NCBI RefSeq assembly: GCF_020076305.1
Contig: NZ_JAIQXE010000001.1
Span: 2,046,001 to 2,110,000 of the forward strand
Source: Flavihumibacter profundi
GTDB lineage: Bacteria; Bacteroidota; Bacteroidia; Chitinophagales; Chitinophagaceae
Direction: 5' to 3'
DNA length: 64,000 nt
Notes under the pieces: model-generated
Told to the model about the DNA's origin: nothing
Database searches by the model: none
The model's input: the letters and a program-made list of their open reading frames with translations, nothing else
In this document: positions 51,834-55,532 of the stretch, piece by piece
Layout of the letters: each line of letters starts with the position of its first letter
Position numbering within the stretch: position 1 is the first letter of the stretch
Position numbers and translations under genes: made by a program

Positions 51834-52526
51834 ATGCTAAAAGCAATTGTGCTGGACGATGAGCCCCTGGCCCTGGAAGTCGTGAAAAGCATGACGGAAA
51901 AAGTAAGTTTTGTTGATGTACTTGCTTACTTCGCCAATGCCTTTGAAGCGATGGATTTCCTGAAAAAAAATCCGGTTGACCTGGTCTTCCTTGATATTAA
52001 AATGCCCGACATCACAGGTATTGATTTCCTGAAATCCTTAGCCAATCCCCCAATGGTCATATTCACTACTGCATATAGCGAACATGCTGTGGAAAGTTTT
52101 GAACTCGACGCGATAGATTACCTGCTAAAACCTTTTTCAATGGTCCGGTTCCTGAAAGCCTGCAACAAAGCTTATGAAGCAGATGGCCGCAGGGCAAGGC
52201 AAACAGAAGAGAATAAAAAGCCCGATTATATTTTTATCAAAAGCGGCTATGAGCAGATCCGCATCCTGCTGGCTGATATCCTGTATGCAGAAGGCAGCGG
52301 TAACTATGTTCAATTTGTATTGGACAACAAGAAGATTGCCTCAAGGCTAACCATGGGTGAAGCTGAAGAGATATTGCCAAAATCAGCATTCATCAGAATA
52401 CACAGATCCTATATTGTCGCAAAACAACACATCCAAAAAATAGACCGCAAATCGGTGTGGACCAACATAACAGAATTGCCAATTGGACCGGCATACCTCA
52501 CTGAAATAGAAAAAATAACCCGCTAA
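51834..52526 (+). CDS. LytTR response regulator
   Basis: A 230-aa regulator. The receiver has the acidic pocket DDEP at 8-11, phospho-acceptor Asp54 in VFLDIKMPDITG, and the conserved YSEHAVESFELDAIDYLLKPF near residue 80. The LytTR DNA-binding domain fills about residues 130-228, including SGNYVQFVLDNKKIASRLTM and RIHRSYIVAKQHIQKI. It is coupled to the sensor kinase gene immediately upstream and probably controls a small regulon. Confidence 0.95.
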   Translation: MLKAIVLDDEPLALEVVKSMTEKVSFVDVLAYFANAFEAMDFLKKNPVDLVFLDIKMPDITGIDFLKSLANPPMVIFTTAYSEHAVESFELDAIDYLLKPFSMVRFLKACNKAYEADGRRARQTEENKKPDYIFIKSGYEQIRILLADILYAEGSGNYVQFVLDNKKIASRLTMGEAEEILPKSAFIRIHRSYIVAKQHIQKIDRKSVWTNITELPIGPAYLTEIEKITR

Positions 52527-52578
52527 ATCATGAAAGATTACCCACCAGCAAATTATCAATACAACTGCCATGAAAAGA

Positions 52579-52617
52579 AATCCCCCGGCGCTAGCCTCCG
52601 GGGGATTACTTTTTTTA
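52579..52617. terminator. Bidirectional terminator between the LytTR regulator and the 189-aa gene
   Basis: A 10-bp perfect GC-rich stem, AATCCCCCGG / CCGGGGGATT, with a 9-nt loop. It is followed by ACTTTTTTT on the plus strand and TTCTTTTC on the minus strand, serving both convergent units. Confidence 0.9.
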
Positions 52618-53184
52618 CAGGGTAATGTCCAATTTCCCCTCGTTGCCTGGGATATCCCTGGCCGTGGCACTGATACTGCAGCCAGCCACCAACGGGTTTT
52701 CCTTTACCGTCGTATATCCCCACCTGTTGCGGTGGATGGGATTCAGGATGGCATTACCTTCTTCCACCAATTCGCCGGTGGCCGTGCGAATGCTAACAAA
52801 GACACTGGCCACACGGAAATCATCTTTTGCATTAATCTCAATCAATGCTCCCGGAAGTCCGGCATATTTTCCCGGGTCGATACCTTTCACAACCGGCGCT
52901 TTCAGGGCATCCCTGAAGGCCATGTTATGGGCGGTTTTGCCCGACGGGGCTTTTCTTTCATACTCTGCTTTCAACTCGGGCGAAGCCATTGCACCTGTAG
53001 CATAAGCCGAAGCATCCGCAAATTTGTCACGTACCCTGACCTGGTTTTCGGTGGGGACTGTGTTTTTGTCGATGGTGGGCATCAGCGCGATGTGCGTGTT
53101 CTTCCCCCTTTTTTTGTAAACGAATTGTTTACCTACATTTCCACGCGCTCCATTTACAAGCGCATTTTTTGTAACTCTGGCCAT
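52615..53184 (-). CDS. Hypothetical protein, 189 aa, basic N terminus
   Basis: I do not recognise this protein with certainty. There is no signal peptide or membrane segment. The N terminus is basic and glycine-rich (RVTKNALVNGARGNVGKQFV, KKRGKNTHIA), a pattern seen in some Bacteroidota proteins of unknown function (DUF6266-like). The last half is strand-rich, ending KENPLVAGCSISATARDI and GNEGKLDITL. The terminator at its 3' end and a 375-bp gap before it indicate a single-gene unit, next to the CACATGG array. Confidence 0.65.
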   Translation of the reverse strand: MARVTKNALVNGARGNVGKQFVYKKRGKNTHIALMPTIDKNTVPTENQVRVRDKFADASAYATGAMASPELKAEYERKAPSGKTAHNMAFRDALKAPVVKGIDPGKYAGLPGALIEINAKDDFRVASVFVSIRTATGELVEEGNAILNPIHRNRWGYTTVKENPLVAGCSISATARDIPGNEGKLDITL

Positions 53185-53446
53185 TTTTTTGTTTTTTAGT
53201 TTTTAATAAAAATTGGGTTTTTTGTGTTTGCTGCAGAAGGAAGCCTGGCGGGTCACAACTCCCGTTTCAGCTTATGTGATGCTCCTCAGCAATAACAACA
53301 ACCAAAAATAATTAGCCAGAAAATAGTTTTTCAGTCTTTGGTACTGGCTATACTCATTTCCGGTACCGGATATAGAGAAATCAGGGACGTACCGGTTTTT
53401 GAGGGGGCATAAAGCATGTATTCGCAGCCGTTGAAAGAAGTCCGGA
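53185..53446. other. Intergenic region between the 189-aa gene and the CACATGG array
   Basis: No gene was called here. It contains a perfect 12-bp palindrome TCCGGTACCGGA at 53359-53370 and low-complexity T-runs beside the minus-strand gene start. A possible frame on the minus strand (53272-53526) was rejected. Confidence 0.5.
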
Positions 53447-53530
53447 CCATGTGCCATCCATGTGCCATCCATGTGAAAAATGCCTATTTTACGCAGGAAA
53501 GCACATGGTTGGCACATGGTTGGCACATGG
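53447..53530. repeat. Array of six CACATGG sites in two inverted triplets
   Basis: CCATGTG occurs at 53447-53453, 53458-53464 and 53469-53475, exactly 11 bp apart; the reverse complement CACATGG occurs at 53502-53508, 53513-53519 and 53524-53530, again exactly 11 bp apart. The four bases between copies are CCAT on the left and TTGG on the right. A 26-bp spacer separates the triplets. All sites lie one helical turn apart, facing the same side of DNA, and stop 29 bp before the start codon of the solo LytTR gene. This is the layout of a cooperative operator, most simply for that LytTR protein itself. Confidence 0.9.
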
Positions 53531-53559
53531 ATCAGGCTAAAAAAACTTAACCGATCAAT

Positions 53560-53919
53560 ATGACAAAATCAATCTATTTCTACCGGAACAATGGCACCTT
53601 GCAAAGGATCGACCTCGATGAAGTTTTCGCCCTGGAAACGGCTAAGAATTATGTGAAATTTTATACCCCCGAAGGAAAACACGTGGTGCGCATTTCACTT
53701 GAAACGGCCATGAAACAATTGAAGGATAAAGGCTTTGTACAGATCCATCGGTATTATGCAGTAGCCATCGAAAAGATCCATGTCATCGATAAAGAGAATG
53801 TATATTTTAGTCAAAATAAAGAAGACAACCTGCCGGTCACAAAAAGTTATTATGCGAATTTGATCAGTCGATTAAAAATGCTTGGGGAAGACGGGGAAAC
53901 CGATAACGAAATAGGATAG
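53560..53919 (+). CDS. Solo LytTR DNA-binding protein
   Basis: A 119-aa protein that is only a LytTR domain, without receiver or other sensor. It starts KSIYFYRNNGTLQRIDLDEV and carries LETAKNYVKFYTPEGKHVV, then QIHRYYAVAIEKIHVIDKEN, the core of LytTR domains with the DNA-contacting Arg/His. With no receiver it may be constitutively active, activated by a partner, or an auxiliary regulator. It is preceded by a six-site CACATGG array and is probably autoregulated. Confidence 0.88.
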   Translation: MTKSIYFYRNNGTLQRIDLDEVFALETAKNYVKFYTPEGKHVVRISLETAMKQLKDKGFVQIHRYYAVAIEKIHVIDKENVYFSQNKEDNLPVTKSYYANLISRLKMLGEDGETDNEIG

Positions 53920-53929
53920 CATCACCAGA

Positions 53930-54294
53930 TTAATGAGTATTCCTGGCATACACCTGGTATCCCCAGGCAGTTAAGCTGTTATTATGATCATGGTTGGTCT
54001 TTGCAGCATTACCATACTTTTCAAACTCAGGGCGGTTGGTGCAAAAATGCCTTCTGCAGTATATTGCCGCAAGTTCACTTCATAAATATTGGTAGTATGG
54101 TTCCAACCAGGAGGTGCAAAAAACAAAGTACTCATGGTTGCAGAATTACCAGGTTTCAATTTAGCAGCTTGTTTATTAGTGGATAACAAAGTAAATGCCA
54201 GCAGAGCCAGCGGCAGTTTCTGCAGTATACTCTGGTTTTTGGTGAAAATAAGATAATCACACACCCACTTCCTTACGTAACAAACAAAGTACAT
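53930..54294 (-). pseudogene. Remnant of a glycoside hydrolase (alpha-amylase-like N terminus)
   Basis: From 54294 leftwards a frame reads a signal-peptide-like LPLALLAFTLLSTNKQAA, then WNHTTNIYEVNLRQYTAEGIF, which matches the first strand of Bacteroidota alpha-amylase family proteins (IYEVNxRQYTxEGTF). After about 20 further codons the frame ends in a stop near 53971 with no relation to the family. In another frame of the same strand an open stretch (RPEFEKYGNAAKTNHD, LTAWGYQVYARNTH) ends in a stop at 53930. This suggests that a deletion joined the first 100 codons of an exported amylase to the end of another gene, out of frame. No functional product is expected. Confidence 0.5.
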
Positions 54295-54297
54295 TTG
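54290..54297 (+). promoter_or_regulatory. Candidate -7 promoter element of ispH
   Basis: TACATTTG is a full TAnnTTTG match, 35 nt before the ispH start codon. It sits at the very end of the amylase remnant. No clear -33 element is seen. Confidence 0.4.
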
Positions 54298-54332
54298 CAG
54301 CTGTTAAAGAGAGATTACACAACTAACCAGTA

Positions 54333-55532
54333 ATGAAACAATTTGAAGTGCCGGTTAAATACCGGAGCCCTATAATATCAGCCATCAAGAATAAACGGAA
54401 ACAGGAAGACCGGTTAAAAAAGGATTTTTCCCCGACCATGCTGGATTTAGGTGCTGTAAAAATTTACCTGGCCCGGCACTTTGGTTTCTGCTATGGGGTT
54501 GAAAATGCTATCGAAATCGCTTTTCGTACAGTGGAAGAGAACCCCGGCAAACGGATTTTCCTGTTAAGTGAAATGATCCATAACCCACAGGTAAATGCCG
54601 ATCTCCAGTCTTATGGGGTTCGGTTTTTACAAGACACTTACGGAAAGCAGTTGATTTCTTTTGACGATGTTACACCTGAAGATATAGTAGTAATACCAGC
54701 TTTTGGAACCACCCTGGCTATAGAACAAATGCTTCGGGAAAAAGGGATTCAGACAGAAAAATATAATACGACCTGCCCATTTGTGGAGAAGGTTTGGAAC
54801 CGGAGTGAGCAGATTGCTGCCAAAGGATACAGCATAGTAATTCACGGAAAGCCCATGCACGAAGAAACCAGGGCAACCTTTTCACATGCTGCAGCCAATG
54901 CACCGGTTGTGATTGTAAATGACATGCAGGATGCAAAAATCCTGGGGCAATACATTACCGGGGAACATGCACCGGAAAGTTTTTATGAAACATTTAAGGG
55001 GAAATATTCCAAGGGGTTTGATATTACCCGCGACCTGGAGCGATTTGGTGTAGTCAACCAGACCACGCAACTGGCGAGTGATACGCAGGCAATCGCAGAA
55101 TACCTGAAAGCGCTGGTCATGAAACATTATGGACTAACGGCATCCAGCATTGGGGAAAGATTTGCCGACACACGCGATACTTTATGTTATGCCACCAGTG
55201 ACAACCAGACAGCAGTTACCAGGATGCTTGAAACTCCAGCCGACCTGGCAATTGTAGTTGGTGGCTACAACTCTTCAAATACTACGCACCTGGTGGAACT
55301 TTGCGAAGAAAAGCTTCCAACCTATTTTATAAGCAATGCGGAAAAGATCATATCTGCTGAAGAAATTCTCCATTTCAATTTCCATACAAAGGCTGAACTA
55401 ATCACAGGCAAATTCCTTCCTGAAAAATCTCCAATAAATATCCTGCTAACCAGCGGCGCTTCCTGCCCTGATGCAGTTGTAGAGGAAGTAATCAAACGAT
55501 TGGCCGAGGTGAAAGGCGTGGCAATCCAATGA
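54333..55532 (+). CDS. ispH: 4-hydroxy-3-methylbut-2-enyl diphosphate reductase
   Basis: A 399-aa iron-sulfur enzyme of the non-mevalonate isoprenoid pathway (releases IPP and DMAPP), long form. It has the cluster-binding Cys in HFGFCYGVENAIEIAF near residue 53, a second Cys in TTCPFVEKVWNRSEQ near 147, and a third in SGASCPDAVVEEVI near 376. HGKPMHEETRATFSHA near 174 is the substrate region. It is monocistronic. Confidence 0.96.
   Translation: MKQFEVPVKYRSPIISAIKNKRKQEDRLKKDFSPTMLDLGAVKIYLARHFGFCYGVENAIEIAFRTVEENPGKRIFLLSEMIHNPQVNADLQSYGVRFLQDTYGKQLISFDDVTPEDIVVIPAFGTTLAIEQMLREKGIQTEKYNTTCPFVEKVWNRSEQIAAKGYSIVIHGKPMHEETRATFSHAAANAPVVIVNDMQDAKILGQYITGEHAPESFYETFKGKYSKGFDITRDLERFGVVNQTTQLASDTQAIAEYLKALVMKHYGLTASSIGERFADTRDTLCYATSDNQTAVTRMLETPADLAIVVGGYNSSNTTHLVELCEEKLPTYFISNAEKIISAEEILHFNFHTKAELITGKFLPEKSPINILLTSGASCPDAVVEEVIKRLAEVKGVAIQ

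Follow-up and report, generated by a model that had tools for sequence, protein, structure and literature searches.

An 11-bp phased repeat array that accompanies an uncharacterised, multi-copy gene family in Chitinophagaceae

REP/RAYT elements are dispersed palindromes with a cognate gene, and plasmid iterons are repeat arrays beside a gene, bound by the Rep protein. Both differ from the array analysed here, a set of 11-bp units next to a solo LytTR gene in the genome of a Flavihumibacter (Chitinophagaceae; a soil bacterium). We rejected a REP/RAYT identity because this genome has no Y1 transposase (0 matches to PF01797, with 5 of 14 controls positive), and in contrast to iterons, the 189-aa gene family beside the array is without a known replication role.

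LytTR operators of the AgrA/LRS type resemble the array in having direct repeats on one face of the helix. In the accessible parts of two sources, canonical sites are 9-bp repeats 10–13 bp apart (PMC11347149), or 9-bp repeats with mostly 12-bp spacers (PMC6193735). For Bacteroides, the latter gives repeats and spacers of 11 bp each, upstream of the promoter, with TATCTTTG as a promoter element downstream of the repeats, and a set of boxes with 22-bp spacing at our locus matches this arrangement as far as that text describes it. The array, however, has units every 11 bp, inverted halves, a locus-specific sequence and usually no adjoining LytTR gene.

Three other systems are similar in part. BldC sites are direct repeats in varying number that BldC binds head-to-tail, but the accessible text describes 9-bp AT-rich units and no cassette, and does not mention inverted halves (PMC5859096). 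The BrickBuilt MITE of Porphyromonas gingivalis, also in Bacteroidota, is a dispersed intergenic element with a tandem repeat; its unit is 23 nt, its inverted-repeat ends are small, and no accompanying gene is mentioned in the portion available (PMC4596501). TAACTGA heptamers form intergenic direct repeats, often before start codons, in some Bacteroidetes, but as one heptamer across many genomes, beside genes without common function, and with no 11-bp period mentioned in the available part of the report (PMC4679880). Neither the array nor the gene family was recognised in the open-access literature searched.

Layout of the array locus

The window is a 64,000-nucleotide stretch of the Flavihumibacter genome (G000, below the own genome), and W denotes its array locus. 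The array and the two genes that flank it lie at the following window positions.

52615..53184, minus strand, 189-aa gene of an uncharacterised multi-copy Chitinophagaceae family
53447..53475, no strand, left arm of the array, three CCATGTG in 11-bp steps (starts 53447, 53458, 53469)
53476..53501, no strand, array core of 26 bp between the arms, resembling the cores of other arrays
53502..53530, no strand, right arm of the array, three CACATGG in 11-bp steps (starts 53502, 53513, 53524)
53560..53919, plus strand, solo LytTR gene (119 aa), beyond the edge of the cassette

A sequence-only reading of this stretch had described six sites in two facing triplets, with exact 11-bp steps and a 26-bp gap, ending (53530) 29 bp before the LytTR ATG at 53560. 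All of this was confirmed, and the phasing of one helical turn per unit that it proposed is supported. Its description of the 119-aa protein as a LytTR domain alone also held, LytTR being the sole Pfam match (residues 16–105, 57.3 bits).

The heptamer CACATGG/CCATGTG was not enriched in the window (7 found versus 9.84 expected); the unusual feature of W is the arrangement, not heptamer frequency. A detector for inverted 11-bp arrays gave 0 matches in 60 order-1 Markov copies of the window. When it was run on the window and 14 loci, which had been picked around arrays or LytTR genes, there were 11 matches at period 11, seven at period 8 and none at periods 9, 10 and 12–15. Applied to the window together with 20 own-genome samples of 20 kb each, it returned the W array itself as the single match at period 11, along with 11 matches at period 8, one each at periods 9 and 14, and none at 10, 12, 13 and 15. 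We note that the period-8 matches make this test weaker for short units.

The 189-aa gene family and dispersed copies of the array

A search of 147 Chitinophagaceae genomes for the gene family to which the 189-aa gene belongs gave 67 matches, spread over 14 of them, and 30 loci were taken from these. Each locus was scored by its best 22-column lag match within 620 bp upstream of the start, with at least 16 of 22 counted as positive and low-complexity tracts removed. The first set held 42 loci, the 30 mentioned above and 12 from a protein search, after removal of duplicate entries for one place and of L129 and L131 (partial, or short of upstream sequence). An 11-bp array lay upstream in 29 of the 42, compared with 0–2 for each of the other ten periods (7–17); on the downstream side, period 11 occurred once and the remaining periods 0–2 times. 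A second set (20 stretches with 26 family ORFs) had 17 positives at period 11 and 0–1 at each other period. Nine of these ORFs duplicated the first set (six positive), and 11 of the 17 new ones were positive. Combined, the array was present at 40 of 59 distinct family loci, with paralogues counted separately, and the other 19 were without a clear array. As controls, 216 other ORFs sampled from the own genome, with an ATG start and at least 200 aa (a cut that drops both window genes flanking the array), gave no positive at period 11 and up to 9 at other periods (period 7). On these comparisons, arrays accompany the 189-aa family more often than the LytTR gene, and do so in several related genera. 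At two loci scored as misses, L093 and L183, the repeat ahead of the family gene has a period of 10 bp.

The sequence of the array unit varies by locus or genome, and eight paralogues in genome G142 have a common unit resembling CACCCAACCAT. The family itself had no convincing match in Pfam, NCBIfam, PHROG or PDB: single members matched weakly in Pfam and PHROGs, five members tested against NCBIfam had no match, and the best PDB match had an E value of 1.5. A phage or plasmid origin was rejected after searches of plasmid and phage collections and IMG/VR with the 189-aa protein gave no match. An orphan, patchy, multi-copy gene family tied to a strict 11-bp array in several genera may offer a handle on both its function and the spread of its cassette.

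A whole-genome scan for further sites, which the sequence-only reading had proposed, revealed seven arrays. The pattern search with up to two mismatches returned 60 places versus 16 for a reversed-pattern control, and all 35 places with at most one mismatch belong to these face-to-face arrays.

C1:111267, 548342, 791664, 1296621 and 2099447 (W); C2:1017415; C3:398816 (L036): the seven own-genome arrays

With one mismatch permitted, the pattern was present in 8 of 59 related genomes, six of which belong to the same genus and include the W genome itself. The other two belong to different families and have one single one-mismatch site each, around which the detector found no array. The same reading had named dispersal at unrelated loci as a point against its operator proposal; the arrays are indeed dispersed, but as part of a cassette, whose ends in W are listed here.

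52575..53530, minus strand, W copy of the cassette, duplicated at G000:C3:398816-399774 (L036), 95% identity over 961 aligned columns
52579..52608, no strand, terminator-like hairpin at the cassette's other end

Homology between W and L036 runs from the first array base, the right arm's outer edge at 53530, to just past the terminator-like hairpin, with nothing matching outside. In a second pair, L010 and L088, the array is distinct (GAGGACCCAAA type) and the copies align in two blocks (231 and 662 bp) at 99% identity; L010 is without part of the leader relative to L088. Here homology begins roughly 30 bp beyond the clear repeats, in a margin that we read as degenerate units, and ends at the terminator hairpin. 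Because both pairs share a unit that reaches from the array to the terminator hairpin, the array marks one end of the duplicated cassette. As judged from the alignments, the W LytTR gene stands outside it. The flanks of these two pairs showed no common target repeat by eye.

Elsewhere, the limits of homology were variable. The arrays of F. solisilvae loci L125, L126 and L127 align as a separate block whose limits are the array edges, and the ORF forms another block, which in two of the three pairs also takes in some of the leader. Among 45 pairs compared in G142, 20 match in the gene, and none of the 20 extends upstream of the array: five start at the array, five have array and gene as separate blocks, and ten start inside. 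Homology passes the array by about 300 bp upstream in L161/L172 (G009) and by about 200 bp in L175/L184 (G060), which weakens the view that the array bounds cassette copying. The same two ends thus recur in near-identical unlinked copies for W/L036, nearly so for L010/L088, and not for these last two pairs; four further locus pairs that we compared had no match. For L175/L184, the point where homology starts is not the 11-bp array but a long palindrome (CGGAGATACTCCACTAATTAGTGGAGTATCTCCG in L175), some 280 bp before the family gene.

L034 and L031 share mainly the array, and homology with W continues past the array on the LytTR side for about 46 bp in L034 and 16 bp in L035. Both L035 and L033 retain the array and leader-region sequence, with no family ORF found at either, and L032 matches the leader region of G013, a close relative, over 134 bp. 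At L031, a possible relic start was read by eye, at a place where the family profile found no ORF. Comparison with G013 gave no clean empty site or target duplication: the places of W, L036 and L034 are deleted or rearranged there, and a single flank matched for L032 when sought in G013 and for the second G013 array when sought in the own genome. The first G013 array shares 95% identity with L034; it sits in the opposite orientation, 2.4 kb upstream of the gene orthologous to L034's neighbour. Since the two may be one displaced array, we dropped this identity as evidence of mobility.

The 22-bp boxes, candidate promoter and possible leader

Between the array and the 189-aa gene lie three further candidate elements.

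53340..53399, minus strand, boxes with 22-bp spacing upstream of the 189-aa gene, candidate LytTR-type operator
53303..53310, minus strand, TATTTTTG, which fits the Bacteroidota −7 promoter box consensus TAnnTTTG
53230..53290, minus strand, possible pseudoknot leader of the 189-aa gene (H-type candidate)

In a first box test of 15 loci, lag 22 was found in five, lag 21 in three and other lags from 14 to 30 in none. The wider test, for which 46 loci were entered and 37 had a long enough region, found a 12-mer repeated at lag 22 in 8 of 37 and at lag 21 in 5 of 37, with other lags from 13 to 30 at three or fewer. By eye, a single base separates the W box ACCGGAAATGA from the B. thetaiotaomicron repeat ACCGGAAATCA, as given in the accessible text of PMC6193735, and neighbouring W boxes are less alike. 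LytTR proteins had been proposed, from the sequence alone, to recognise the array as repeats about two turns apart. The array fits that spacing only when alternate units are counted (22 bp), and on sequence the adjacent boxes fit the published LytTR repeats better than the 11-bp array does. A single intergenic region may hold two phased elements, one LytTR-like with 22-bp spacing and a second, 11-bp kind.

The leader showed less consistent evidence of structure. Among 15 leaders, the proposed fold was best and above all 12 mononucleotide shuffles in five (L127, L130, L160, L174 and L165); those of L125 and L010 beat the shuffles with another fold, and those of W, G013, L036, L126, L128, L088, L158 and L159 were not above them. 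Because further pairs were chosen by eye, the pseudoknot remains a candidate. In W, L127, L130, L160, L174 and L165, the candidate stems differ in sequence yet are complementary. Rfam had no match for the leader and nothing at gathering score in window positions 52500–54400, where matches to microRNA models arise from the hairpin only. Known RNAs were likewise rejected, as 14 loci searched at gathering scores gave three tRNAs only.

Candidate roles of the array and the LytTR gene

We favour, with a probability of about 0.42, a reading in which the array serves the cassette as a helically phased platform for protein binding, and perhaps also as a copying boundary. The sequence itself establishes the link with the family, the period of 11, the dispersal and, for some copies, homology limits at or close to the array. 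The array would be a cis-acting part of a dispersed cassette ordered as array, 22-bp boxes, promoter, leader, ORF and terminator hairpin, with a single gene of the ~190-aa family. A protein would bind one unit per helical turn, on both sides toward the core, and could influence expression or copying. In the genus Flavihumibacter, the outer edge of the array would lie near the point where the cassette is copied, and LytTR would act via the 22-bp boxes rather than the array. The protein bound to the array might be the product of the family gene, a host factor, or LytTR acting in trans. Counting against the favoured reading, 19 of the 59 family loci have no clear array, the 189-aa ORF of G013 is intact although its array is lost, homology passes the array in some pairs, the searches for a Y1 transposase, a clean empty site and a target duplication were negative, and 11-bp tandem tracts occur away from the family as well. 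A long shot, in our judgement, is the more extensive version in which these are mobile Chitinophagaceae cassettes without a visible transposase, each lineage's 11-bp unit being read for copying and expression by a matching factor, which might be the protein that the cassette encodes, with solo LytTR as a recurrent accessory regulator via the 22-bp boxes.

The sequence-only reading had instead taken the array as a cooperative, autoregulatory operator of the solo LytTR gene that also controls the 189-aa gene; other arrays would then be a regulon or relics. We consider this possible but doubtful. The 29-bp adjacency and the phasing stand in its favour, as does the 22-bp distance between alternate units, which is near the LytTR period. 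A profile of seven solo LytTR proteins found LytTR ORFs, divergent or tandem, at 11 of 43 family loci in four genera, which supports the earlier suggestion of a recurrent neighbourhood of solo LytTR, array and family gene. Inverted arrays lie between divergent LytTR and family-gene pairs in two other genera (L159, L160), and a single deletion in G013 removed array and LytTR sequence together.

53400..53842, no strand, 443 bp (array and 5' part of the LytTR gene) absent in G013

In contrast, six of the seven own-genome arrays have no LytTR gene near: the genome has 22 LytTR matches, the nearest of which to any of those six is about 38 kb away. The profile also found none in 13 other array loci (six in the own genome, seven in relatives), and L036, L088, L125, L126 and L158 have an array and no LytTR ORF in the flanks fetched. 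In G142, eight paralogues have a common unit, yet L210 is the only G142 stretch in which a LytTR ORF was found. G013 keeps arrays at two other loci although its LytTR gene is reduced to a 25-aa remnant. Orthologues of the W LytTR were found at E≤1e-10 in 5 of 15 genomes of the genus, of which four were counted (that of G002 is a 248-aa frame, not solo). LytTR orthologues in the genus are only 32–36% identical to it, yet the array units of W and F. solisilvae remain similar. The boxes, finally, fit the spacing in the accessible literature better than the array. The two-component regulator beside W also matches the LytTR profile, and at L129 (55–1752) in Flavihumibacter sp. CACIAM 22H1, two family ORFs stand in a row with a LytTR ORF between them.

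An iteron-like alternative, which we regard as unlikely, makes the family protein the binder of the array: it would recognise the repeats next to the gene that encodes it, and regulate or copy the cassette to which that gene belongs. The family gene is the commonest partner of the array, and unit similarity tracks N-domain identity (r = 0.43 over 300 pairs from 25 of the 29 array-positive loci of the first census set, with 0 of 2000 permutations reaching it). In the 285 pairs below 60% identity, however, r was only 0.145 (60 of 2000 permutations), the unit GCGAAGGATGA reappears beside distant family members, and cis linkage alone could produce the correlation. Given the weak correlation below 60% identity, we make no claim that the family protein binds the array.

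Passive, minisatellite-like repeats, which arise by slippage and copying between arms and hitch-hike with a duplicating gene, are in our view distinctly unlikely. Array copy number does differ from locus to locus, and the 19 family loci noted above manage without a clear array. In the 231-bp 5' block of L010 (3082–3312) and L088 (1140–1370), two of three differences fall in the array and are mirrored between arms, which suggests copying from one arm to the other. Passive repeats would, however, have to keep strictly to the 11-bp step in several genera although the sequences differ, and arrays of different loci are 82–95% identical although their surroundings often fail to align. We consider it very improbable that the array works as a hairpin, in RNA or extruded DNA, since any inverted arrangement would give strong scores like those of all five arrays folded (z −5.7 to −8.8 versus shuffles), many arrays of the family consist of direct repeats only and could not form such a hairpin, and the W version has a mismatch between successive units.

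About 464 kb of sampled own genome contained four 11-bp tandem tracts besides the W array, away from the family (L100:311, L107:16624, L110:16749 and L119:17001, with no family match among the matches listed). The sequence CACATGGTCTTCATGTGG has five copies elsewhere in G000, at C1:2022615, C2:384389, C2:1017820, C3:851458 and C4:611074, one of which lies about 0.4 kb from the C2 array.
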